A DNA stretch of 33,565 nt, taken from an uncultured Alphaproteobacteria bacterium. GTDB lineage: Bacteria; Pseudomonadota; Alphaproteobacteria; MPNO01; UBA830. The translations under genes and the position numbers were made by a program. Where the stretch lies: positions 1 through 33,565 of the forward strand of contig CAJWSW010000026.1 in NCBI GenBank assembly GCA_913046035.1, read 5' to 3'. Positions within the stretch are counted from its first letter, which is position 1, and every line of letters begins with the position of its first letter. Below are positions 15,695 to 29,894 of this stretch, one piece after another. Below the pieces are notes generated by a model that saw only the letters and a program-made list of their open reading frames with translations, was not told where the DNA came from and did not search any database.

Positions 15695-15712
15695 GATATA
15701 GGGGAGGATATG

Positions 15713-17389
15713 ATGGGCTCGAAAATTATGCGCCGAAATACGAAAGAAATCCGGAGCCCAACAGGCACGGCCCTTAACGCCTTGAGCTGGCAAGCCGAGG
15801 CACCCTTACGCATGTTGATGAATAATCTTGACCCTGACGTTGCGGAACATCCAGAAGAATTGGTGGTTTATGGGGGGATCGGGCGTGCGGCGCGTAATTG
15901 GGATTGTTACGAAACGATTATTTCACAGTTAAAGACATTAAAAGTCGACGAAACTTTGTTGGTGCAGAGCGGAAAGCCGGTCGGCGTATTTCGCACCCAC
16001 GAAAATGCGCCGCGTGTCCTTATCGCGAATTCAAATATCGTCGCTAACTGGGCGACGCTTGATCATTTTACAGAACTGGACCGGGCCGGGCTTATGATGT
16101 ACGGCCAAATGACAGCAGGTTCGTGGATATACATCGGCAGCCAGGGAATTGTGCAAGGAACCTACGAAACATTTGTTGAGGTCGGGCGCCAGCATTTCGA
16201 CGGCAACTTAAGGGGAAAATGGATTCTCACCGGTGGACTAGGGGGTATGGGCGGCGCCCAGCCGCTGGCGGCGACTATGGCGGGGGCAAGCATTATAGCA
16301 GTTGAATGCCAGCCCAGCCGCATAGAATATCGGATGCGAACCGGTTATCTGGATACCAAAGCGGACACCTTTGAAGACGCACTATCAATCCTCCAAAAAT
16401 CTCATGCGAACGGTAAACCGGTATCGGTGGGCTTACTCGGGAACGCCGCCGAGGTGTACCCTAAAATTCTTGAGAGCAGCGTGCGTCCGGATATCGTCAC
16501 AGACCAGACGTCGGCGCACGATCCCGTTAACGGTTATCTTCCGGTTGGATGGACGGTAGAAGAATGGATAGAACGCAGAGAGCGTGAACCAAAGGAGGTC
16601 GAGAAGGCTTCTAAAGAATCCATGGCATATCAAGTTAGGGCAATGCTTGCGTTCCATAGGCAAGGTATCCCGGTTCTCGACTATGGCAACAATTTGCGGC
16701 AGATGGCATTGGATGTCGGCGTTGAGGATGCATTCGATTATCCGGGGTTCGTGCAGGCCTACGTTCGGCCACTTTTCTGTCGGGGGATCGGGCCATTCCG
16801 TTGGGCGGCTCTGTCGGGTGATCCTGAAGACATTTATCGTACGGATGAGAAGGTAAAAGAATTAATCCCTAATGATCCGCACCTTCATAACTGGTTAGAT
16901 ATGGCGCGTGAGCGGATTAAGTTCCAGGGCTTGCCAGCGCGGATTTGCTGGCTGGGCTTGGGGCAGCGTCATCGTATGGGGCTTGCTTTTAACGAAATGG
17001 TGAGAAGTGGCGAGGTCTCTGCGCCTATCGTAATCGGGCGCGATCACATGGACTCAGGGTCCGTTGCTAGTCCTAATCGTGAGACCGAGGGTATGAAGGA
17101 CGGGTCGGATGCGGTCGCGGACTGGCCTTTGCTAAATGCGTTACTCAATACAGCCAGCGGCGCAACATGGGTATCAATCCACCACGGTGGTGGCGTAGGA
17201 ATTGGGTATTCGCAGCATTCCGGCGTCGTTGTCATGGCTGATGGCACTGATGATGCAGCACGTCGGATTGAGCGCGTATTGTGGAACGATCCTGGCACCG
17301 GTGTAATGCGCCATGCGGATGCTGGTTATGAGATAGCTATTGATTGCGCAAAAGAGAATGGGCTCAATCTACCCATGATCGATAATTAA
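15713..17389 (+). CDS. hutU: Urocanate hydratase
   Basis: A 558-residue urocanase that converts urocanate to imidazolonepropionate, using tightly bound NAD+ as an electrophile, the second step of histidine breakdown. Length and sequence are normal: [12 protein letters not shown], the NAD-binding [34 protein letters not shown], the [15 protein letters not shown] block and the GLPARICW motif, whose cysteine (about residue 412) corresponds to Cys410 of the Pseudomonas enzyme. GGGGAGG at 15701-15707 is five bases before the ATG at 15713 and only two before the ATG at 15710, so the second ATG is preferred. hutI lies convergently downstream. No hutH is seen on either side. Confidence 0.97.
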
Positions 17390-17480
17390 GGTCGGATGCA
17401 TTTGTCAGGGATGCGATGTGCCGACAGAAAATTCGCCGGCGTGTAAAAGGCAGGCTAATTGAAACCTGCTTCCCGTATAC

Positions 17481-18743
17481 TCACGCCATGACGCCAGGTA
17501 GGGTCAATTCCTTTTCAAAGTCTACTACAGTACCTCCTTGAATAAGCATATCGAGCGGATTGTACGCCGCCCAATAGGACAACTCGGCAGGTTGCTCGAT
17601 GTTCCATACGGCTAGGTCTGCAAGCTTACCTACTTCCAGCGTCCCGCGATCAGCATCGACACCGAGAGCCCGAGCGGCATTGCGCGTCGCGCCTGCCAGT
17701 GCTTCCTCCGGCGTCATTCGGAACATGGTGCAGCTCATATTCAACATTAGCAGTAAAGATGGCATGGGGGACGAACCAGGGTTGAAGTCCGACGCGATGG
17801 CGATATCGACACCATGTTTACGGAAAAGATCAATTGGCGGCAGTTGCGTCTCGCGCAAAGTGTAGAATGCGCCCGGAAGGAGTACGGCCACGGTGCCCGC
17901 AGCCGCCATTGCACGGACACCGTCCTCGGAAATAAACTCAAGATGGTCTGCTGACATGGCGCCAAATCGTGCAGCTAGTGCAGCACCGCCCTGGTCCGAA
18001 AGTTGTTCTGCGTGTAATTTTACCGGAAGACCGTGAGCCTGAGCCGCTTTGAAGACACCTTCAGTCTCAGCGGCGGTAAATCCAATATTCTCGCAGAATG
18101 CGTCCACTGCATCAGCGGCACCGTTTTCTGCGACCGCTGGTATCATTTCTTCGATTACCTTTTCGATATAGTCACCCTGTCGACCCTTGAATTCTGGCGG
18201 AAGGGCATGCGCTCCTAGGAAAGTTGTTTGAACATTGACCGGTAGAGTCGCTCCTAAGGCGCGCGCGGCGAAGAGCTGTTTCAATTCTGCCGATGTTTCT
18301 AATCCGTAGCCCGATTTGATTTCAACCGTTGTGCATCCTTCGCGTATCAAGTTTGATAATCGGGGAATTCCGGCTTTAATGAGTTCATCTTCGCTGGCGT
18401 TACGAGTAGCAGCCATCGTGGAGACAATACCACCGCCATTTCGGGAAATTTCCTCGTAACTGGCTCCCTGTAGTCGCTGTTCGAATTCACCCACGCGGCT
18501 ACCCCCGAACACAAGATGTGTATGGCAGTCGATTAGACCTGGCGTGATCCACTTCCCAGTTGCATCGATAACGTTGGAAGCGAGGGCCTCAGGTTTTTTG
18601 GGCAGGGTCTCCATAAGGCCAATCCACGCTATGCGGCTATTTTTAATTGCGATTGCGCCGTTTTTAACCTGTCCATAGGAGTTACCGGTCACAGCCATTG
18701 TTGCGAGACTTGTGTTAATCCAGATCGTGTCCCAGTCAGCCAA
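17481..18743 (-). CDS. hutI: Imidazolonepropionase
   Basis: A 420-residue amidohydrolase-superfamily enzyme that opens the imidazolone ring to give N-formimidoyl-L-glutamate, the third step of histidine breakdown. The metal site begins with [15 protein letters not shown] (H-x-H) and is followed by the substrate loop [17 protein letters not shown]. Other landmarks are [30 protein letters not shown] and [11 protein letters not shown] with the catalytic Asp. It is read towards hutU, and its start faces hutG across a 180-base gap that must hold both promoters. No clear HutC-like palindrome was recognised in that gap. Confidence 0.96.
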
Positions 18744-18923
18744 CTCTCACCCTCCTTGATCGCTATTGATTGCGGTTCGAACACCGTCATTTTATACCTG
18801 TGATGCCAGGCTATGAACCGAGAACTCGCGAAATGGCGATAAAATGATCTTTTTACCTGAAATTTTTCATTTCCTGCCCCAACGTAACTTAAATTGTTTC
18901 CTGCTAGGCTATGAGGCGGGATC

Positions 18924-19736
18924 GTGAAGCTACCTGTGATAGATATCCAATTGGGTAATGCGCCCCTTATCATTAATATTCCTCATGACGGCCGCGAAAT
19001 ACCCTCAGATATCGGTGCGACAATGACCGCCGACGCGCTGGCGTTACCGGATACCGATTGGCATATCCGTCACCTCTACTCCTTTGCGGCTGAATTGGGC
19101 GCTACTTTTGCCTCTGCGCGATATTCGCGTTATGTTGTTGATTTAAACCGCGACCCGAGTGGGAAGTCACTTTATCCGGGCGCCGACACCACTGAGGTCT
19201 GTCCGACGAGCACATTCCACAGGGAGCCCATATATGTAAATGGACAGTCTCCCGACAGTGCAGAGGTAAAGCAGCGATTAGATCAATTTTGGTACAGTTA
19301 TCACGCCAACTTGGCACAGCTTATCGCTGAAGAAACGGCCAAACACGGAACCATAATATTATTTGACGCACATTCTATCGGTTCTGAATTACCCCGATTT
19401 TTTGAGGGGCGTCTGCCGGATTTTAACCTTGGTACCGGCGACGGGGTGAGTGCTGATAGCATTTTGACCGAACGCATGTTCGACGTTCTTAATAGGGCCG
19501 AAGATTATACCGCGAGCCTTAACGGCCGCTTTAAGGGAGGATATATCACCCGTCACTACGGTGATCCGGATGCAGGCGTGCATGCCGTCCAACTGGAAAT
19601 GGCACAGGTTGCTTATATGGACGAGAAGGCGCCCTACCGCCTCCTTCCCGACCGAGTGGATCGTGTGCGCCCTGTACTATTCGAACTACTTTCTACCGGC
19701 CTTGACTGGGTCCGGGATCAGACCAACTCGGCTTGA
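18924..19736 (+). CDS. hutG: N-formylglutamate deformylase
   Basis: A 270-residue N-formylglutamate amidohydrolase that releases formate and glutamate, the last step of the five-step histidine pathway used with HutF. The family pattern is clear: APLIINIPHDGREIPSDIG, YVVDLNRDPSGKSLYPG, ILFDAHSIGSELPRFFEGRLPDFNLGT and GGYITRHYGDPDAGVHAVQLEMAQVAYM. The start is the GTG at 18924 behind GAGGCGGG; an ATG at 18911 is out of frame. hutF begins at the next codon (GTG 19737) or one codon later, so the two are co-translated. Confidence 0.95.
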   Translation: MKLPVIDIQLGNAPLIINIPHDGREIPSDIGATMTADALALPDTDWHIRHLYSFAAELGATFASARYSRYVVDLNRDPSGKSLYPGADTTEVCPTSTFHREPIYVNGQSPDSAEVKQRLDQFWYSYHANLAQLIAEETAKHGTIILFDAHSIGSELPRFFEGRLPDFNLGTGDGVSADSILTERMFDVLNRAEDYTASLNGRFKGGYITRHYGDPDAGVHAVQLEMAQVAYMDEKAPYRLLPDRVDRVRPVLFELLSTGLDWVRDQTNSA

Positions 19737-19739
19737 GTG

Positions 19740-21116
19740 ATGGCTGCTTTTAAGTTCGATTACCTCTATTCGAAGTCTGGCTGGCTGTCGCCTGGATTTG
19801 TTCTTATAAATTCTGAGGGTTGGATAACTTACATTTCAGAAGTCGCACCGCCGGAAAAAGTAATGCACATTCCAGGCATCGCCATGCCCGGCATGACTAA
19901 CGTACACTCCCACGCGTTTCAGCGCGGCATGGCCGGCCTCAGTGAATATCGTACTGCCGCAACGCACGATAGTTTTTGGACCTGGCGTGAGCTGATGTAT
20001 CAATTTGTCAGCCGCCTCTCACCAGATGACTTTGAGGCAATCGCGGCACAGCTTTACATCGAGATGCTAAAATCTGGTTATACTGCGGTTGGTGAATTCC
20101 AATATTTGCATCACAACACCGATGGTACTCCATTCGACGTCCCGGCAGAAATGAGCCTTCGCGCACTGGCAGCGGCGCGTGAAACGGGGATCGGCTTGAC
20201 ACTTTTGCCTGTATTTTACCGCTACGCGGGTTTCGCCAAACAGCCGCCAAATAAGCATCAAGAGCGTTTTATCAATGATCCAGAAGAATTTCTTAAAATA
20301 TATCGATCTCTTTCAGAGGCGACAGGGTGTGACCCCAACTGCAATACCGGCATCGCGCCGCATAGCTTGCGTGCAGTAGACGTGGAATCCATTCGTGAGG
20401 TGATGGGTGAAGCCAGCGTTGATACTCCTGTTCACATTCATATCGCCGAGCAAAAAAAAGAAGTCGACGACTGTGTTGCGTTCTTTGGTAGACGTCCCTA
20501 TGAGCATCTACAGGGGTCCATAGACTTCCAAGGGAGCTGGTGCCTTATACATGGTACCCACTTAACTGCCGCCGAGGTTAACGCCGCTATAGCATCTGGC
20601 ATGATTGCGGGTCTTTGTCCGACGACTGAAGCGAACCTCGGCGACGGGCTTTTCGATTTGCCTGAGTGGCAGCGAAATAATGGAGCCTTCGGTATCGGAT
20701 CGGATAGCCATATTTCCATCAGTCCTGTTGAAGAGCTCCGGTGGTTGGAATATGGCCAACGCTTGCGCGATCGTCGGCGTAACGTAGCCGCGACTGAGGT
20801 TTCTTCGACAGGGAAAGCGCTTTTTGACTCCGTTGTCGCCGGCGGCGCAGCCGCATTAAGCAGAACTGGGGGCAACGGCGAAACCGGCCTCGAGCTGGGC
20901 GCGCGTGGGGATATAATAGTGCTAGATATGGAAGCTCCAATATTTGCTGGGCACACTCCAGATACTTTTCTGGATGCTTGGGTGTTCTCGGGAAATGAAC
21001 CATTAGTCACCGATGTTTTCGTTGGTGGTAGCCCCGTTATAACGGAGGGCCGGCATGAGCTCCAAGACGAAGCTGCCTTTCGTTATCAAGCTGCAGTGAA
21101 CCGGCTGCTTGCCTAG
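19740..21116 (+). CDS. hutF: Formimidoylglutamate deiminase
   Basis: A 458-residue amidohydrolase that converts N-formimidoylglutamate to N-formylglutamate and ammonia, feeding HutG. The metal motif is MTNVHSHAFQRGMAGLSEY (H-x-H), followed by DSFWTWRELMYQF and SGYTAVGEFQYLHH, all typical of HutF. Later come TGIAPHSLRAV, VHIHIAEQKKEVDDC, GLCPTTEANLGDG and FGIGSDSHISISPVEELRWLEY. The ATG at 19740 is chosen; a GTG directly after the hutG stop at 19737 would add one residue. Presence of hutF with hutG shows the formate-releasing branch rather than the formamide-releasing HutE-type branch. Confidence 0.96.
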   Translation: MAAFKFDYLYSKSGWLSPGFVLINSEGWITYISEVAPPEKVMHIPGIAMPGMTNVHSHAFQRGMAGLSEYRTAATHDSFWTWRELMYQFVSRLSPDDFEAIAAQLYIEMLKSGYTAVGEFQYLHHNTDGTPFDVPAEMSLRALAAARETGIGLTLLPVFYRYAGFAKQPPNKHQERFINDPEEFLKIYRSLSEATGCDPNCNTGIAPHSLRAVDVESIREVMGEASVDTPVHIHIAEQKKEVDDCVAFFGRRPYEHLQGSIDFQGSWCLIHGTHLTAAEVNAAIASGMIAGLCPTTEANLGDGLFDLPEWQRNNGAFGIGSDSHISISPVEELRWLEYGQRLRDRRRNVAATEVSSTGKALFDSVVAGGAAALSRTGGNGETGLELGARGDIIVLDMEAPIFAGHTPDTFLDAWVFSGNEPLVTDVFVGGSPVITEGRHELQDEAAFRYQAAVNRLLA

Positions 21117-21371: not shown

Positions 21372-22241
21372 ATGTTATTACGCGTTTCAATTTTGGTGCT
21401 TGCTTTTATGGTTCCTGTAGTACTCGGATCTAAATCCGAGGCTGCGAATAAGTTCGTCTTTACCGCTATCCCCGATCAAGATGAAAGTGCGCTTCGGAAG
21501 CGTTTCGACAAAGTTGCGAAATACCTCTCGGCCACACTTTCAAAAGAGGTTGAGTATGTCCCTGTGAAATCTTACGCAGCTGCCGTCACGGCATTCCGCA
21601 ACAACCAGGTTCAGTTGGCATGGTTTGGGGGTCTGTCAGGTGTGCGTGCACGGATGCTCGTTAAAGGCTCGACGGCGATTGCTCAAGGTAAGGCAGATCC
21701 ATTTTTCGAGACCTATTTTATTGCAAACGCCAGTACGGGATTGACCTTGTCTAAGGATTTTCCCAAAAAAATTGCCGGAAAGACTTTTACGTTTGGATCG
21801 AAGGGGTCAACGTCCGGTAGGTTGATGCCCGAATATCATATCCGTAAAGCATTCGGTAAAACGCCCCAACAAGTGTTCAGCCGTGTTGGTTTTAGTGGCA
21901 ACCATTCGAGGACTGTCGCACTCGTTCAGTCGGGTGCATACGAAGTAGGTGCGACGAACTTTAAGGTCTGGAAAAAAGGGCTGAAAAACGGCACGATCGA
22001 CCCAAAGAAAATCCGTGTAATATGGAAAACGCCTGGATATCCTGACTACAATTGGTCGATCCGGGGTGACGTTGATAAGGCGTTCGGCAAAGGCTTCTCT
22101 GATAAGGTACAAGCCGCTCTTTTGTCAATGAATGATCCCGATCTCCTCAACTCATTCCCGCGAGCAGGCTTTATTCCAGCGAAAAATTCAGACTATGCTC
22201 CTATCAAAGAGACAGCAAAAGAGCTCGGACTGATCGACTGA
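21372..22241 (+). CDS. ABC transporter substrate-binding protein, PhnD-like, putative selenium oxyanion
   Basis: A 289-residue periplasmic binding protein of the PhnD type. A signal peptide covers about residues 1-24 (LLRVSILVLAFMVPVVLGS, cleaved near KSEA). The mature part shows FVFTAIPDQDESALRKRFDK, VEYVPVKSYAAAVTAFRNNQVQLAWFGG and the anion-binding style segment FTFGSKGSTSGRLMP. This matches a subfamily described as putative selenate ABC transporter binding proteins, which is encoded next to fused SelD genes. Its placement before an ATPase, a permease and selD fits import of a selenium compound for the downstream enzymes. Phosphonate or phosphite remains possible, but no phosphonate-degrading gene is near. 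It overlaps the ATPase start by one base (TGATG). Confidence 0.85.
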   Translation: MLLRVSILVLAFMVPVVLGSKSEAANKFVFTAIPDQDESALRKRFDKVAKYLSATLSKEVEYVPVKSYAAAVTAFRNNQVQLAWFGGLSGVRARMLVKGSTAIAQGKADPFFETYFIANASTGLTLSKDFPKKIAGKTFTFGSKGSTSGRLMPEYHIRKAFGKTPQQVFSRVGFSGNHSRTVALVQSGAYEVGATNFKVWKKGLKNGTIDPKKIRVIWKTPGYPDYNWSIRGDVDKAFGKGFSDKVQAALLSMNDPDLLNSFPRAGFIPAKNSDYAPIKETAKELGLID

Positions 22242-22915
22242 TGTCATTATTGGAACTTCGCGGAGAGTCTGCAGGTTATAATGGAAAGTCGATCCTTCGA
22301 GATGTGTCCTTAAAGATCGAACCTGGTGAGCGCATAGCGTTTGTTGGCGAGAGCGGAGCAGGGAAATCTACCTTGCTCCGCCTTCTTTATGGCAGGTTGG
22401 GCAATACCGCCGCCTTGATGCCCCAGGACTCTGCATTGGTACAGTCATTATCAGTGTTCCACAATGTGTATATGGGCCGGTTGCATCAATGTTCGGTGTG
22501 GCGAAACCTGCGCAACTTGCTTTTTCCAGCAGCAACGGACATCGAGGAAGTCAGGAAAGTTCTCACCCCGCTGCGGCTTGAGGAAAAGTTATTCTCTAAT
22601 GTGGGTCAACTTTCTGGTGGGCAGTATCAACGCACAGCGCTGGCTCGAGCTCTATACCATCCTGGCCGGGTAATTGTGGCAGACGAACCGGTATCCTCGG
22701 TCGACGAACATCAAGCCAGTGAAATTCTGTCAACCATGAATTGCGAAAAAGAAACGGTCCTACTTGCCATGCATGATCGGGCATTAGCCCTGGAGTTTGC
22801 TAATCGAATTATCGGGATTCGCGATGGAGGCATTGTCATGGATACACCATCTGCTGGGATGACACCCGAAGATTTGGACGAACTTTATTTGGCCGGAGGT
22901 ATGATAACAGCGTGA
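22241..22915 (+). CDS. ABC transporter ATP-binding protein (PhnC-like)
   Basis: A 224-residue ABC ATPase. Walker A is GESGAGKSTLLRLLYG (about residues 37-52), the Q-loop is in ALMPQDSALV, the signature is LSGGQYQRTALARAL, and Walker B with the catalytic Glu is VIVADEPVSSVDE. The switch His is in LLAMHDRAL. The segment VFHNVYMGRL is typical of phosphonate-type (PhnC) ATPases. It powers uptake together with the flanking binding protein and permease. The start overlaps the previous stop, and its own stop overlaps the permease GTG (GTGA), so all three are tightly coupled. Confidence 0.92.
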   Translation: MSLLELRGESAGYNGKSILRDVSLKIEPGERIAFVGESGAGKSTLLRLLYGRLGNTAALMPQDSALVQSLSVFHNVYMGRLHQCSVWRNLRNLLFPAATDIEEVRKVLTPLRLEEKLFSNVGQLSGGQYQRTALARALYHPGRVIVADEPVSSVDEHQASEILSTMNCEKETVLLAMHDRALALEFANRIIGIRDGGIVMDTPSAGMTPEDLDELYLAGGMITA

Positions 22916-24399
22916 TCCCGCGTAGGGAGCCGTCGCCCCTCGGGCGAACTACGTCTGGCTTCCTGCTAGTTGGGTTTATTTGCCTCGTTTTTGCAGACAT
23001 CGCGATATCAACAGGCGATCCTTGGAAAGAATTCGGGTTGCTGCTGAACGGCATTGTGACCCCGAACTTTTACCAGACAGATAGTCTGACGCTGGCCATC
23101 GCTTACACCATGGCGTTCGCGATGTTAGGTGTGGCATTCGGAAACATTGCGGGATTTGGCCTTGCACTGGTCTTTCACTATCGAGTGGTGCGTGTTGGCT
23201 GTGCATTTATTCGAGCGATCCATGAATTGTTCTGGGCTCTTATATTTTTGCAGATGTTTGGACTCTCGCCTTTGACAGGTATCCTTGCCATTGCGATCCC
23301 CTACTCCGGGATCATAGCAAAGGTTTACGCTGAGATCCTGGAGGAGGCCGATCCAAGACCCCTTGCTGCAGTACCCGTGGGTGCGGGAAGGACTTCAACC
23401 TTTATTTTCGTTCGCCTTCCTGATGTTTGGGCCCATTTCCGCACCTATTCGATGTATCGACTCGAGTGCGGCTTGCGGTCAAGCGCTGTGCTTGGGTTTA
23501 TTGGCCTGCCAACACTCGGTTTTCATTTGGAGACCGCATTCAAGGAGGGTTACTACTCTGAAGTATCAGCGCTTTTAATTTTATTTTACCTGATTATCGC
23601 AACTATGCGGGTTTGGATGAAAAAACCGCTACTGCCAATCTACTTGATTGGCGCGGCAGCAATCCTGCCTTGGGGTGTCACTTTTTCTTGGGCGCATATT
23701 ACGCGCTTCTTGACTGAGGATATCATTCCATATCCCATTCGCGCTGGGGGTGAGAACATGATGGCATCTCTCGTTGACTGGGTAACAATGCTATTTCTCA
23801 ATCAGATTTGGCCCGGCACTATAGCAACGGTTCAGCTCACAATGATTGCTTTAGTCGCAACCGGTCTACTTACACTTTTCTTTTTTCCGTTGATTTCGCC
23901 GCTTTTGTTCGGTCGCACCGCGCGGACGGGGGGCCATGTATTTTTAGTTGTCGTGCGCTCAACACCAGAATACATCCTCGCCTTTGTGTTACTTAACCTG
24001 TGGGGCCCATCGATGCTGCCAGCAATCGTTGCGCTGAGCCTCCATAATGCGGCGATTATCGGTCACTTGATTGGGCGGTTTACCGAAACCTTGAAGCTTC
24101 GGCTTGATGCAGTCAAAGGTCTGAACCGGTATTTCTACGAGGTGGTTCCGAGGGTTTATCGCCCAATGTTGGCTCTGCTTTTCTACCGTTGGGAGGTTAT
24201 TCTTCGTGAAACGGCGATCTTAGGTATTCTGGGTATTGCAACCCTAGGGTTCTATGTAGATAGCGCTTTCGCTGATCTTCGCTTTGACCGGGCAATGTTT
24301 CTGATCCTAATAACTGCAATACTGAATATTTGCGTCGATGCTCTTTCACGCAGCATCCGCAGCAGGTTGCGCCTGCACACCACACTTGAGGAACGTTAA
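22912..24399 (+). CDS. ABC transporter permease, tandem PhnE-like domains
   Basis: A 495-residue membrane protein that contains two BPD-type permease modules in one chain. The first (about residues 55-240) has an EAA-like loop near EILEEADPRPLAAVPVGAGR. The second (about 285-485) has one near GRFTETLKLRLDAVKGLNRYF. Each is surrounded by several hydrophobic helices, and both end with a similar GFIGLPTLGFHLETAF / GILGIATLGFYVDSAF motif. Two fused half-permeases would provide the whole membrane pore, so only one gene is needed. The start is GTG at 22912, overlapping the ATPase stop. It ends five bases before the SelD fusion gene. Confidence 0.88.
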   Translation: MIPRREPSPLGRTTSGFLLVGFICLVFADIAISTGDPWKEFGLLLNGIVTPNFYQTDSLTLAIAYTMAFAMLGVAFGNIAGFGLALVFHYRVVRVGCAFIRAIHELFWALIFLQMFGLSPLTGILAIAIPYSGIIAKVYAEILEEADPRPLAAVPVGAGRTSTFIFVRLPDVWAHFRTYSMYRLECGLRSSAVLGFIGLPTLGFHLETAFKEGYYSEVSALLILFYLIIATMRVWMKKPLLPIYLIGAAAILPWGVTFSWAHITRFLTEDIIPYPIRAGGENMMASLVDWVTMLFLNQIWPGTIATVQLTMIALVATGLLTLFFFPLISPLLFGRTARTGGHVFLVVVRSTPEYILAFVLLNLWGPSMLPAIVALSLHNAAIIGHLIGRFTETLKLRLDAVKGLNRYFYEVVPRVYRPMLALLFYRWEVILRETAILGILGIATLGFYVDSAFADLRFDRAMFLILITAILNICVDALSRSIRSRLRLHTTLEER

Positions 24400-24403
24400 G
24401 AAA

Positions 24404-26671
24404 ATGAAAACATCTGACACCCCTGTAGTGAAAGATCTCGTGCTTATTGGCGGCGGTCACAGTCATATCGCTGTGCTGAAGCGGTTCGGCATGAAGCCGC
24501 TTCCAGGCGTTCGACTGACGTTGATTTGCCGAGATGCACATACGCCATATTCAGGAATGTTGCCGGGTTATGTCGCGGGTCATTACGATTACGATCAAGC
24601 ACATATTGATTTGGGAGCACTGGCGCGGTTTGCAAATGCGCGGTTCTATCATTCCACGGTGATAGGGTTAGACCTAAAAGATAAGCGGGTTATCTGCGAC
24701 AATCGGCCTCCCGTTTCATTTGAACTCCTCTCGATTAATACGGGAAGCACACCAAATACATCATTGGTTCCTGGTGCGACCAAGAATGTGGTGCCGGTGA
24801 AACCAATCAATACATTCCTTGATCGATGGGATACTCTGTGCGCGCGAACGATGGCGCATGAGGGCCCGCTGCGAATTGCGGTCGTCGGTGCCGGTGCTGG
24901 TGGTGTGGAAATTCTCCTAGCCATACGCCACAGGCTTCAGAATTTGCGCGAAGAAGCTGGGAAAAGTTTTGATACCATCGAATTCCATCTCTTTAGCAGC
25001 ACCAATCAAATACTCCCAACACATAACGCGAAAGTTCGCGCAACGTTTATTGAGACGCTTAGGCAACGAAATGTTGTTGTGCATTTAGGAGCTTCAGTAA
25101 CCGAGGTAGAGCCCGGTCAGCTAAAGATCGGTAATGGAGATTTCGTTACTGCTGACGAAATTTTGTGGGTCACGGCAGCTGGCGCGCCTGAATGGCCAGC
25201 GGCCGCGGGGCTAGATACCGACCAGGCTGGGTTTATAAAGGTTGGAGATACTTTGCAATCGATATCACATCCTGATGTTTATGCGGCTGGGGATATTGCC
25301 ACCATGCTTAATTACCCTCGGCCAAAGTCTGGCGTGTTCGCGGTGCGGCAGGGTAAGCCATTGGAGCGTAATCTACGGCGTGCCTTGCTAGGTAAGTCGC
25401 AGATTCCCTTCCGGCCGCAATCCAAATTCCTCAGCTTAATTTCGACCGGAGATAAGTTTGCTATCGCATCGCGCGGTAATTGGTCGTTGCGAGGACGAGT
25501 CATCTGGCAGTGGAAAGATTGGATCGATCGACGTTTCATGGACAAGTTTAACGATCTTCCCGACATGGACGAAAAGGAAGCTACTGGCCTACCAGACGGT
25601 CTCGCCAATGCTGATGTTGTGAAGGAGATTTCCGCCATCGCTATGCGTTGCGGGGGCTGCGGTGCTAAAGTTGGCGCGACAGTGCTCTCGAGGGCGTTAA
25701 ATTCTCTGACGCCAGCGCCACGCGATGACGTGCTTATCGGTTTGCACGAACCCGACGACGCAGCGGTGGTTGAGGTGCCACCCGGAAAGGTGATCGTGCA
25801 TACTGTGGATTATTTTCGCGCTATGGTCGACGACCCGTATATTTTTGGGAAAATCGCTGCCAATCATAGTCTTGGCGATATTTTTGCCATGGGCGGCGAC
25901 CCGCAGACCGCGCTTGCGGTCGCGACTGTTCCATTTGGCATCGAAGCAAAGGTCGAAGACACGCTAACCCAGATGATGACCGGTGCGATGGAAATTCTAA
26001 ATGATACGAACTGCGCTTTGGTTGGCGGGCACACCTCCGAGGGACCAGAGCTAAGTCTGGGCTTTGCGGTCAATGGTCTGATCGACAAGGATAAAATTAT
26101 GCGCAAGGGCGGGTTAAGACCCGGAGACAAGCTAATAGTCACTAAGCCCATTGGAACCGGTACGCTGTTTGCTGCTGACATGCGGCATAAGGCTAAAGGA
26201 CGTTGGATCGCCTCAGCATTGGATCACATGGTTATGTCAAACCGGAAGGGTGCTGAATGCCTTGTAGAGCACGGCAGTCGCGCGGCAACCGATATCACTG
26301 GCTTCGGCCTACTGGGACACCTCGTAGAAATGGTGCGTGCTTCCGCGGTTGACGTTGTTTTGGAACTGGATGCTGTGCCATTCATGGATGGTTCCGAACA
26401 AACCGCCAAAGCCGGGATCTTATCGTCCCTGCAGCCGCAAAACATTCGGCTACGCCGCGCTGTCGCAAATCTGGAAGAAGCCGGGAAGGACCCACGCTAT
26501 CCCCTTATTTTTGACCCTCAGACGGCCGGGGGGCTGCTTGCCAGTGTGCCCGCTGAAAACGCTGACATTTGTGTTGAGAAACTGAAGGGCCTCGGTTACC
26601 GCTGCACCACGATTATCGGCGAAGTGCTCGAACAGTCGGACAGGCTGGAACCAATTACAGTCAGATTGTGA
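24404..26671 (+). CDS. selD: Fused FAD/NAD(P) oxidoreductase-selenophosphate synthase (SenC/SelD)
   Basis: A 755-residue two-domain protein. Residues about 8-370 are a pyridine nucleotide-disulphide oxidoreductase of the NDH-2 type (DLVLIGGGHSHIAVLKRFG, then IAVVGAGAGGVEIL and PDVYAAGDIATM). Residues about 415-755 are selenophosphate synthase, which makes selenophosphate from selenide and ATP. Its catalytic segment is RCGGCGAKVGATVL, with C419 and K422 matching the essential Cys17 and Lys20 of E. coli SelD; Cys19 is Ala here. The residue is Cys (TGC), not selenocysteine. The oxidoreductase may reduce a selenium species for the synthase; this is inferred. The ATG at 24404 is preferred over the 22-codon upstream extension, which overlaps the permease. 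Next to senA and senB it fills the SenC role. Its end overlaps panE convergently by 11 bases. Confidence 0.93.
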   Translation: MKTSDTPVVKDLVLIGGGHSHIAVLKRFGMKPLPGVRLTLICRDAHTPYSGMLPGYVAGHYDYDQAHIDLGALARFANARFYHSTVIGLDLKDKRVICDNRPPVSFELLSINTGSTPNTSLVPGATKNVVPVKPINTFLDRWDTLCARTMAHEGPLRIAVVGAGAGGVEILLAIRHRLQNLREEAGKSFDTIEFHLFSSTNQILPTHNAKVRATFIETLRQRNVVVHLGASVTEVEPGQLKIGNGDFVTADEILWVTAAGAPEWPAAAGLDTDQAGFIKVGDTLQSISHPDVYAAGDIATMLNYPRPKSGVFAVRQGKPLERNLRRALLGKSQIPFRPQSKFLSLISTGDKFAIASRGNWSLRGRVIWQWKDWIDRRFMDKFNDLPDMDEKEATGLPDGLANADVVKEISAIAMRCGGCGAKVGATVLSRALNSLTPAPRDDVLIGLHEPDDAAVVEVPPGKVIVHTVDYFRAMVDDPYIFGKIAANHSLGDIFAMGGDPQTALAVATVPFGIEAKVEDTLTQMMTGAMEILNDTNCALVGGHTSEGPELSLGFAVNGLIDKDKIMRKGGLRPGDKLIVTKPIGTGTLFAADMRHKAKGRWIASALDHMVMSNRKGAECLVEHGSRAATDITGFGLLGHLVEMVRASAVDVVLELDAVPFMDGSEQTAKAGILSSLQPQNIRLRRAVANLEEAGKDPRYPLIFDPQTAGGLLASVPAENADICVEKLKGLGYRCTTIIGEVLEQSDRLEPITVRL

Positions 26672-27605
26672 CTGGTCTTTCATCTTTATAGAGCCCTGAC
26701 CGGGGCAGTAGCGCAGCGTAAACTGTTTGGCAAACTGGCGTGGGTATCCCGGCCTCCCGGCCCATCCGCACTACCGCGCCTGCCAACCAGGGTAATTCCA
26801 GCCGGTTGCCGGCTTTCAGGTCATGATGCATAGACGTTGTCATCTCAGCGGGCACGCCGTCCGCAAAGTCGAGGCGTGTCGTGCCGAAATTTTCTGGCAG
26901 ATTTACTCCCCGTGCACGGCCAACGGCGGTCACCTCGCGGAAAACATTGTGCAAAAATTCTCGGCCTTCAGTGTCGCTGCGGATTGGGCCGATCTCGCTA
27001 TTCATCAGCGTGGTAGTCGAACTCATGCCAACTAAGAAGACAAATTTTTCCCATATAGTCCGTTCGATGTCGTCGCTAATTTCCGCATCTATCCCGCCTG
27101 CAATCATAGCCGCAAATAGTTTTTCAACAGGTTTTGACGACGGTCCTTCGAGTTCACCCATGATGACCCGCTGCATCGTTCCAATATGTTTAACCGTGCC
27201 AGGTTTTGAAATTGAACTGGCGATGAACGCAACACCGCTTATCATTCGTTCGCGCCCGACAATTGGCGCGAGAATATCATCACCATCCACGCCATTCTGG
27301 AGGGAAAGAACTTTTGTGTTTGGTTTCAGCATCGGGACTATAGCGCGGCCAGCATCTTCCGTATCCCAGAGTTTAACACCGATAATTATATAATCGACTG
27401 GGCCTACGTTAGCGGGATTATTGGTAGCATTGGCGGGATGGATGGTGATGCTTCCCAAATCTGTACTTTCGATTTTTATACCGGTCTTCTGAATGGCCTC
27501 GAGATGGGGGCCTCTGGCAATGAACGTCACATTTATGCCGGCTTTTGCCATGCGAGCTCCGAAATAGCCGCCGATCCCGCCGCTACCCATCATCGCGATT
27601 TTCAT
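26661..27605 (-). CDS. PanE/ApbA-type 2-dehydropantoate 2-reductase paralogue
   Basis: A 314-residue NAD(P)H-dependent reductase of the ketopantoate reductase family. The Rossmann start is MKIAMMGSGGIGGYFGARMA, followed by IGVKLWDTEDA and VLSLQNGVDGDD. The catalytic-lysine segment reads IWEKFVFLVGMSSTTTLM: the Lys is kept, but the Asn that follows four residues later in true PanE (Lys176/Asn180 of E. coli) is Leu. Such paralogues are common and mostly without assigned substrate, so pantothenate synthesis is doubtful. The ATG at 27605 overlaps the senB stop (ATGA), making it the second gene of a two-gene unit with senB. An upstream ATG at 27641 lies inside senB and is less likely. A role in selenium metabolism is inferred from position only. 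Confidence 0.85.
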   Translation of the reverse strand: MKIAMMGSGGIGGYFGARMAKAGINVTFIARGPHLEAIQKTGIKIESTDLGSITIHPANATNNPANVGPVDYIIIGVKLWDTEDAGRAIVPMLKPNTKVLSLQNGVDGDDILAPIVGRERMISGVAFIASSISKPGTVKHIGTMQRVIMGELEGPSSKPVEKLFAAMIAGGIDAEISDDIERTIWEKFVFLVGMSSTTTLMNSEIGPIRSDTEGREFLHNVFREVTAVGRARGVNLPENFGTTRLDFADGVPAEMTTSMHHDLKAGNRLELPWLAGAVVRMGREAGIPTPVCQTVYAALLPRSGLYKDERPVTI

Positions 27606-28564
27606 GATTGTACCCCCAGGTCTTTCAGCAGGCTCTGCCAAGCTTCTTTTTCGCCGGCAGGCGTGTAAAGCGGCTTAAGCTTATTACAACTGTGTTCAAG
27701 GCGCTTTAGAAATGCAGAATTTGTCTCTGATCTCTGCAAAATTTCTGCCAGTGCGGCTTCGTCTTCCGCAGGGTAATAGCCCGGATAATCTTCACCCAGC
27801 ATGCCGACATTGCCGTCGATGCGCGATGCAATTATGGGTACACCGCAGACGATAGCTTCTGAGACGATATTTGCACCGCCTTCCATTATCGAGCTGATTA
27901 ACATTGCATGGCTGCGGGAGAACTGTTTTCGGACTTCCCAGTTTGCGACTTCTCCGCGCCAAATATAGCGGGTGTTAGATTGGACCTCGGCAACCGCGGT
28001 TTTTTCCCATCCTGGATCATGTGCCCTGCCAAGGTGAACAATCCGCAGGCGGGATGTAGACGGAAGCAGCCGTGCCGCGTAAGCGGCGCGCATTGGATCT
28101 TTTTCTTCCCGCAGGTGTCCTGCAACGACGATTTCAAACCATCGTTTGGAGGGCCTTCGCGGAGAAGGAAGAGGGGGGGAAGACTGGCGTATAATTGTAA
28201 GTTTTCTATGGTATTTTTCCGGTATTGCACGTTCCACGAGGTCATGAAGGCCTATAAGTTTGGTCGCGCGTTCCATGGCGTCCAGCGTTACCTTTGTGTG
28301 GCTGTGCTGGAATTTATAGATATCTGTTCCGGCAAGAAGAACTACCAGTGGCCGGTGGGGTCTATGTTGTGAAAATGCGCGAATGGATTTTGCTGACCGC
28401 CAAGCGTGTATAGCTATCATCATATCGGCATCATCGCCGTCATCATTCATCGAAATATTAACTTGGTGACCAAAGTCGCGCAGGATCCGCGCCCAGCGTG
28501 CCGCTGTGGTTCGGTTACCTGCGCGCGACTGTTTCCCTGCGGGTGTTACAAGGCTAATCTTCAT
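27602..28564 (-). CDS. senB: SenB-type selenosugar synthase (GT-B glycosyltransferase)
   Basis: A 320-residue glycosyltransferase of the GT-B fold. The N-terminus MKISLVTPAGKQSRAGNRTTAARWARIL and the segment LLAGTDIYKFQ are typical of the family described as SenB (earlier a putative glycosyltransferase family found beside EgtB-like proteins). In the C-terminal half FEIVVAGHLREEKDPMRAA begins the nucleotide-sugar domain, and EGGANIVSEAIVCGVPIIASRI holds the E-x7-E motif. In the known pathway SenB joins selenophosphate to a UDP-sugar, giving a selenosugar, the selenium donor for SenA. It is divergent from senA with only 22 bases between start codons, and its stop overlaps the PanE-like gene. 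Confidence 0.9.
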   Translation of the reverse strand: MKISLVTPAGKQSRAGNRTTAARWARILRDFGHQVNISMNDDGDDADMMIAIHAWRSAKSIRAFSQHRPHRPLVVLLAGTDIYKFQHSHTKVTLDAMERATKLIGLHDLVERAIPEKYHRKLTIIRQSSPPLPSPRRPSKRWFEIVVAGHLREEKDPMRAAYAARLLPSTSRLRIVHLGRAHDPGWEKTAVAEVQSNTRYIWRGEVANWEVRKQFSRSHAMLISSIMEGGANIVSEAIVCGVPIIASRIDGNVGMLGEDYPGYYPAEDEAALAEILQRSETNSAFLKRLEHSCNKLKPLYTPAGEKEAWQSLLKDLGVQS

Positions 28565-28586: not shown

Positions 28587-29894
28587 ATGACTGCACAAGT
28601 TTCAACCACTCATTTAACAAACATTCTAAGTAGCGCTCGACAGCGGACGTTGGAGCTGTTGGACGGGCTTAACGGCGAACAATTAGTTGGCCCAAAGCAG
28701 CCGATCCTTAATCCAATGATTTGGGAAATAGGGCATGTAGCCTGGTTCCACGAATTTTTTATTTTACGCCAAGAGTATGGAAACGCTCCGCTACTTGATC
28801 GAGGTGATCTTTTATACGATTCGATCGCTGTCGCCCATGATACGCGGTGGGATTTGCCAGTTTATCCCTTGGTTGAGATGAAAGATTATATGACACGTGT
28901 TTTCGACCAACTGGTTGATCGTCTAGATGGTGGGCTCGCTTCCGAACGCGACAGTTATTTGTACCAATTTACAACCTTCCACGAAGACATGCACGATGAA
29001 GCGTTCACGTGGGCGCGGCAGACCCTGGCGTACCCGACGCCCAACTTCAAAGATGATGGGCCAAGGGTGAGTAGGGATCCGATTTTTGGTGAGATAAGCG
29101 GCGATGCATGCATTCCCGGTGGCGCTTTACGCATGGGATCGGAACCTACTGACGCTTTTGTTTTTGATAATGAAAAATGGGCGCGTGAAATTCAGGTCTT
29201 CCCTTTCAAGATGGCAAAGGTGCCTGTGACTTGTGGGCAATTTGCAGAATTTGTGGAGGATGGCGGTTACGAGACTGACGGTTTGTGGACAGAAGACGGT
29301 CTTAGGTGGCGTCGTGAGATTGGCGCTAAATTCCCCGTCTATTGGAAGCGAGATGCTGCGGGTGGCTGGAAGGTTCGATCGTTCGATATCTGGGATGATA
29401 TAGATTTAGATAAACCGGTCGTGCATGTTAATTGGCATGAAGCTAATGCTTTTTGCAAGTGGGCCGGGCGGCGTCTGCCCACTGAGGCCGAATGGGAGTT
29501 CGCAGCAACTATGTGCCCTGGACGGGACGGGACGTTCGTAAAATCCGAATACCCTTGGGGCAATAGTCCTATTACTGGCTTGAGGGCTAACACGGATGGG
29601 TTTGAGCTTGGTTGCGCAGCCGTGAGTGATTATTCCGCCGGCGATAACGCATGGGGTTGTCGACAACTTATAGGTAATGTTTGGGAGTGGACCGCGGACA
29701 CTTTTAACCCCTTCGACGGGTTCTCTCCCGACGATTATAAGGAATATTCCAAACCTTTATTTGGCACGACTAAGGTTTTGCGGGGGGGGTCATGGGCGAC
29801 CCGAAGCCGATATATCGACGCTAAATATAGGAATTATTTTGGGCCACAACGGTCGGATATTTTCTGTGGTTTCAGAACATGCGCTAATGATTAA
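28587..29894 (+). CDS. senA: SenA-type selenoneine synthase (EgtB homologue)
   Basis: A 435-residue non-haem iron enzyme with an N-terminal DinB-like helical domain and a C-terminal sulfatase-modifying-factor/FGE domain, as in EgtB. The three-His iron site is visible: H50 in EIGHVAWFHEFF and H132/H136 in FHEDMHDEAF, close to His51, His134 and His138 of EgtB. The FGE part begins near residue 170 (IPGGALRMGSEP) and shows NWHEANAFCKWAGRRLPTEAEWE, LIGNVWEWTADTFNPF and LRGGSWATRSR. SenA oxidatively couples a selenosugar to hercynine on the way to selenoneine. Assignment as SenA rather than EgtB rests on the adjacent senB and selD; no gamma-glutamylcysteine ligase (egtA) or egtC is near. Confidence 0.88.
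   Translation: MTAQVSTTHLTNILSSARQRTLELLDGLNGEQLVGPKQPILNPMIWEIGHVAWFHEFFILRQEYGNAPLLDRGDLLYDSIAVAHDTRWDLPVYPLVEMKDYMTRVFDQLVDRLDGGLASERDSYLYQFTTFHEDMHDEAFTWARQTLAYPTPNFKDDGPRVSRDPIFGEISGDACIPGGALRMGSEPTDAFVFDNEKWAREIQVFPFKMAKVPVTCGQFAEFVEDGGYETDGLWTEDGLRWRREIGAKFPVYWKRDAAGGWKVRSFDIWDDIDLDKPVVHVNWHEANAFCKWAGRRLPTEAEWEFAATMCPGRDGTFVKSEYPWGNSPITGLRANTDGFELGCAAVSDYSAGDNAWGCRQLIGNVWEWTADTFNPFDGFSPDDYKEYSKPLFGTTKVLRGGSWATRSRYIDAKYRNYFGPQRSDIFCGFRTCAND

Follow-up and report, generated by a model that had tools for sequence, protein, structure and literature searches.

Which compound is carried by an ABC importer whose genes end immediately before selD, and does that compound serve selenium metabolism? 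The question is raised by a contig of 33,565 nucleotides from an uncultured alphaproteobacterium (the whole stretch is referred to here as the window), in which a preliminary description had pointed to a candidate uptake system for selenium compounds. A 2026 review states that a transport system both specific for selenium and of high affinity has yet to be identified in any prokaryote (PMC13188914), and in an archaeon the deletion of five candidate transporters, described in 2024, brought none to light (PMC11097638). From the analysis described below, the locus very probably encodes a selenium importer, and by analogy with solved relatives of its binding protein the main cargo is probably selenite. 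The evidence brings the search for a selenium importer down to a single family with a single likely ligand, and to a single assay.

Organization of the transport operon and its selenium genes

The operon begins with a periplasmic substrate-binding protein of 289 residues (positions 21372..22241, forward strand; TIGR04553 and PF12974), which carries an N-terminal signal sequence at approximately residues 1–25. This is followed by an ABC ATPase of 224 residues (22241..22915, forward strand), PhnC-like and under the PhnC cut-off, in whose sequence the P-loop GESGAGKST, the LSGGQ signature and the motif VIVADEP can be read, and by a permease of 495 residues (22912..24399, forward strand) in which two PhnE-type transmembrane domains are fused. 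The N- and C-terminal halves of the permease are homologous (E = 2e-11), the matching stretches lying at approximately 23182–23583 and 23914–24312, and no solved structure related to the permease was matched by sequence. All parts of an ABC importer are present: a binding protein, an ATPase with P-loop and LSGGQ, and two transmembrane domains, here on one chain. The fused permease of about 500 residues is found in most relatives of this system, whereas most of the control systems introduced below have single domains of about 290 residues.

The three genes had been described as overlapping and as lying just before selD, and the reading frames at these coordinates bear this out: the binding-protein and ATPase genes overlap by one base (TGATG), the ATPase and permease genes overlap by four (GTGA), and the permease stop codon, ending at 24399, is separated by a gap of four bases from the selD ATG at 24404. 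These junctions suggest that all four genes are probably co-translated. The 270 bases upstream of the binding-protein gene showed no promoter-like match and, when compared with four relatives, no alignable conserved element, and an Rfam scan of the window returned tRNA-Ser alone.

The selD gene encodes a fusion of an NAD/FAD oxidoreductase with selenophosphate synthetase (SenC; 24404..26671, forward strand), in which the flavoprotein domain (TIGR03169, 505 bits, over its cut-off) is N-terminal to a SelD domain of the Cys version (TIGR00476, 304 bits, cut-off 125) with the catalytic Cys/Lys motif CGGCGAK. Within 4 kb after the fusion are found senB, for the selenosugar synthase of selenoneine biosynthesis (27602..28564, reverse strand; TIGR04348, 397 bits, cut-off 300), and senA, for selenoneine synthase (28587..29894, forward strand; NF041186, 476 bits, cut-off 420), and with all three models over their cut-offs the selenoneine cluster senABC is present between 24404 and 29894. 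A ketopantoate-reductase-like gene (26661–27641, reverse strand; TIGR00745) is positioned between selD and senB. In 80 relatives of the locus senB usually comes straight after selD, and a PanE-like gene was detected near selD in none of them; the gene appears to have been inserted in this lineage specifically. Downstream of senA, between 29955 and 32962, are genes for an amidohydrolase (PF04909), for a znuB/znuC-like zinc importer and for a Fur-family regulator; no gene for an egtD-like methyltransferase, the expected source of hercynine for selenoneine, was seen beside senA.

Abutting the operon on its upstream side is a histidine-utilisation cluster (hutU, hutI, hutG and hutF; 15710–21116). 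Histidine is the precursor of selenoneine; none of the 80 relatives has these hut genes nearby, however, and their adjacency to the selenium operon therefore seems incidental. The genome to which the window belongs has three uses for selenium, encoded by selA-selB-tRNA(Sec), mnmH and senAB. The genes selA, selB and tRNA(Sec) are found together on contig C17 of this genome (4613–8101 of locus L170), with molybdenum-hydroxylase-like genes nearby.

Family assignment of the binding protein

Placement of the binding protein in the subfamily annotated as putatively selenate-binding was upheld by profile searches. The protein scores 377.5 bits with TIGR04553 (cut-off 250), aligned over profile positions 2–266 of 266, and it fails the PhnD model TIGR03431 (127 bits, cut-off 261). 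TIGR04553 (ABC_peri_selen) is a hypothetical equivalog named "putative selenate ABC transporter substrate-binding protein"; the window protein is a full-length member well above the cut-off, and it has relatives that adjoin selenium genes. The remark that phosphonate genes are missing nearby holds for more than the neighborhood, as PhnJ, the marker of C-P lyase, is absent from the whole assembly, which is 91% complete.

Several characterized proteins share the fold of the window protein. E. coli PhnD, the phosphonate-binding protein linked to C-P lyase, differs in having a larger pocket that lacks a tyrosine cap (PMC5700983), and it is the PhnD model that the window protein fails. The AioX and ArrX proteins, which bind arsenic oxyanions, belong to the same fold family and set a precedent for metalloid specificity with a non-phosphorus oxyanion, but they have approximately 20% identity and are parts of sensing systems rather than importers (PMC5908839). 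Closer in detail are the phosphite-binding PtxB proteins (5O2J, 5JVB and 5LV1), which have in common with the window protein the STS-His cradle and the capping tyrosine with its supporting aspartate; they nevertheless form a separate clade, and 5LV1 has Tyr and Gln at the positions where the TIGR04553 family has Phe112 and Asp225. In the literature PtxB is tied to the phosphite dehydrogenase PtxD, and no PtxD-type dehydrogenase is adjacent to the importer at the window locus.

The nearest protein outside the clade, encoded in genome G059 (contig C43; 8848–9957 of locus L143), scores 222 bits with TIGR04553, just under the cut-off. No SelD over the cut-off was found in G059 and no selenium gene was detected near this protein, which may represent a sister group from before or after selenium specialization.

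Genomic association with selenium use

The 80 relatives were gathered by the binding protein alone, without the use of selenium genes. They come from Alpha- and Gammaproteobacteria, SAR324, Campylobacterota, Nitrospinota and Poribacteria (at least five phyla), with no cyanobacterial locus among the 80 kept. A gene for SelD, SenB, SenA, MnmH, SelA or SelB was found within 10 kb in 44 of the 80, versus none of 20 control paralogues with the same fold, from the same class and below the TIGR04553 cut-off. The partners vary among loci and include fused SelD with senB, separate SelD with mnmH, SelD with selA and selB, and senAB alone; the SelD fusion directly follows the permease in 12 loci. Among the gene families that recur near the importer, selenium genes are the ones that can be named once synteny within a single genus is set aside. 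Because the arrangement beside selenium genes recurs in at least five phyla, it is not a product of chance.

Genomes whose importer locus lacks such neighbors were found to have SelD elsewhere. At 36 loci no selenium gene flanks the importer, and 33 of these genomes encode SelD over the cut-off elsewhere; where other selenium genes are present with no local selD the genome has SelD in five of six cases. Overall, 76 of the 80 genomes encode SelD, compared with 19% in the class survey described next. The four exceptions are three metagenome-assembled genomes and one of unstated type, their completeness not being given, and in one of the four (locus L069) the oxidoreductase domain of a SelD fusion is cut off at the contig end.

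For the class survey, 190 genomes were drawn evenly from the class. SelD was found in 36, selA in 24, mnmH in 14, senB in 8 and PhnJ in 30, and TIGR04553 was passed in eight genomes, each from a different family. A selenium trait is present in all eight importer genomes versus 29 of the other 182 (Fisher p = 1e-6), and selD alone in seven of eight versus 29 of 182 (p = 4e-5), with genomes treated in both comparisons as independent, which is only approximately true. In the eighth importer genome (L165), selA-selB come right after the permease. PhnJ is found in none of the eight, a count that alone is not significant. Since 29 of the 36 genomes of the class that encode SelD do without this importer, selenium use does not require it.

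These results sustain the proposal of a selenium-compound importer coupled to selD, through the family assignment, the recurrent linkage to several selenium pathways, the presence of SelD in 76 of 80 genomes and the lack of C-P lyase among importer genomes in the class survey. A survey of co-occurrence with senA and senB had been suggested as a check; here the linkage proved to be with selenium use in general and not specifically with senA and senB. A selenoneine-specific role was accordingly rejected as the general function, as three of the eight importer genomes of the class have no senB and others pair the importer with mnmH or selAB. The common factor is SelD and no single product, which argues that the cargo should be a general source of selenium shared by these pathways, not selenoneine.

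Many importer genomes (G187, G091, G123 and several others) have a SelD gene with one in-frame TGA, presumably for selenocysteine. In G187 a SelD of this kind occurs together with a Cys fusion SelD, the latter beside the importer.

The ligand pocket and its solved relatives

Both by sequence and by the fold of an AlphaFold model (pLDDT 90.7), the binding protein was matched best in the PDB by 7S6G, the PhnD1 protein of Synechococcus with phosphate, and by 5LQ8 and 5LQ5, the PhnD1 protein of Prochlorococcus with phosphite or methylphosphonate. The sequences of 7S6G and 5LQ5 themselves pass TIGR04553 (334 and 297 bits), and together with the selenium-linked proteins they form one clade apart from PtxB (support 100/98). 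The picocyanobacterial PhnD1CE proteins (group 3 of Bisson 2017) thus have in common with the window protein the family model, the clade and the contact residues, including the Phe/Asp pair, at 41–45% identity; they differ in having been published as phosphite-binding proteins or as a constitutive phosphate system, and in adjoining tesA rather than selD.

The pocket of the window protein is formed by D35, Y68, F112, S146, T147, S148, H178, N196, D225 and Y226, and all PhnD1 contacts are represented among these residues. In PhnD1 numbering the contacts are Y46, the S126-T127-S128 run, H158, D205, F90 and the cap Y206 with D13 and N176. The positions of D13, Y46, F90, S126, T127, H158, N176 and Y206 are identical in 81 of 81 members, that of S128 in 80 and that of D205 in 77, the remaining four having Asn in place of Asp225.

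PhnD1 binds phosphite at 0.05–4.3 µM and phosphate at 7–182 µM, a preference for phosphite of approximately 10- to 3,600-fold; it also prefers phosphite over methylphosphonate, does not bind 2-aminoethylphosphonate and, in the Synechococcus protein, has no measurable binding of hypophosphite; the ligand must have three oxygens arranged trigonally (PMC10284923, PMC5700983). The authors infer from the Asp205 contact that the ligand is mono-protonated (PMC10284923, PMC5700983), and in the related HtxB an aspartate enforces the protonation state of the ligand (PMC6629693). The ligands measured for members of TIGR04553 are phosphorus anions; no test of a selenium ligand on any member was found in the literature searched.

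Selenite compared with other ligands

The family name and the pocket point to different selenium oxyanions. Selenite is a pyramidal anion with three oxygens, like phosphite, has a lone pair where phosphite has hydrogen and carries a proton near neutral pH, while selenate forms a phosphate-like tetrahedron of four oxygens and is by then fully deprotonated. The likeness to phosphite is imperfect, in that the bonds to oxygen are longer in selenite and its lone pair, facing the tyrosine ring, does not exactly reproduce the P-H···π contact of phosphite. Both the phosphite-like shape and the protonation match the aspartate acceptor and the tyrosine cap, which favors selenite over selenate; the hydrogen selenite ion, HSeO3−, predominates at pH 4–7 (PMC8981825). 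By this analogy we favor selenite as the better fit to the selectivity measured for PhnD1. Selenate as the natural cargo would be in keeping with the family name, and the genomic association with selenium genes applies to it equally, but the solved relatives bind phosphate, the corresponding four-oxygen tetrahedron, 10- to 3,600-fold more weakly than phosphite. Selenate, being deprotonated, is also unable to donate the hydrogen bond that Asp225 appears to need, a requirement with a precedent in HtxB. We regard selenate as an improbable cargo; the selenate specificity in the name TIGR04553 is a guess, and the pocket argues for selenite.

To a similar degree we doubt that the system imports phosphite, phosphate or a simple phosphonate, as published for PhnD1, with its place beside selD being incidental. 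That reading has direct measurements behind it, namely Kd values for two family members whose crystal structures contain phosphite, methylphosphonate or phosphate (PMC10284923, PMC5700983), but it is at odds with the repeated occurrence of the importer beside selenium genes of four kinds, with the frequency of SelD among the relatives and, if given the little weight it has alone, with the lack of PhnJ in the importer genomes. An organic selenium compound (selenoneine, a selenosugar, selenomethionine or methylseleninate) is suggested by the proximity of senA and senB at this locus and at those of some relatives; against this, the pocket is small and capped, the relatives tested bind neither 2-aminoethylphosphonate nor the two-oxygen anion hypophosphite, and the importer is also found in genomes without senB and beside mnmH or selA, so that such a cargo appears very unlikely. 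Least credible of all is an importer of sulfite or another small pyramidal oxyanion that serves selenium users incidentally: sulfite matches selenite in shape and charge and inhibits selenite reduction in one bacterium (PMC8981825), but the nameable recurrent neighbors of the importer are selenium genes, and its association is with SelD, which handles selenide.

Proposed transport pathway

The reading we consider likely is that of a dedicated selenium-oxyanion ABC importer, most likely for hydrogen selenite, that feeds selenophosphate synthesis. The periplasmic protein is predicted to close around a small three-oxygen anion, most likely HSeO3−, with the STS-His-Tyr cradle holding the oxygens and Asp225 in position to accept the proton of the ligand. 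Tyr226, held by Asp35 and Asn196, would cap the fourth position, which in selenite is occupied by the lone pair. At the cost of ATP, the ATPase and the permease with its two fused domains would then carry selenite to the cytoplasm, where it may be reduced to selenide by cellular thiols or perhaps by the flavoprotein domain fused to SelD. SelD would make selenophosphate from this selenide, for use by SenB and SenA next door (selenoneine) and by SelA/SelB (selenocysteine) and MnmH (selenouridine), encoded elsewhere in the genome.

Implications for marine PhnD1

That the TIGR04553 family was named, with a putative function, was already known; new are the breadth of its selenium association measured against controls, the recognition that two PhnD1 proteins of known structure belong to it, and the case for selenite rather than selenate. 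They link two literatures that are unconnected in the papers searched, one on the "selenate" importers predicted in selenium genomics, the other on the marine PhnD1 proteins. Selenium is not mentioned in the main text of PMC10284923, in the 2017 structural paper or in a 2021 review.

All 97 sequenced marine strains of Prochlorococcus and Synechococcus in the Cyanorak database have PhnD1. Most of these strains cannot grow on phosphite and can use neither phosphite nor methylphosphonate, and the gene is not tied to phosphate supply, a further point against a phosphorus importer; the authors describe this as a paradox and suggest that PhnD1 serves constitutively in phosphate transport (PMC10284923). 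Prochlorococcus and Synechococcus also carry an oxidoreductase-SelD fusion and ybbB (PMC1273633), and the linkage of PhnD1 to selenium in cyanobacteria is drawn entirely from such published work. We give about even chances to the broader proposal that the TIGR04553 transporters fill a long-standing gap as the dedicated importers by which bacteria take up selenium with high affinity, that selenite is their cargo, and that PhnD1CE is a selenite importer too. If so, a role in selenite uptake would explain why most strains keep PhnD1 and yet neither use phosphite nor regulate PhnD1 by phosphate, and some of the most abundant photosynthetic organisms would carry a selenium importer that is annotated as a phosphorus one.
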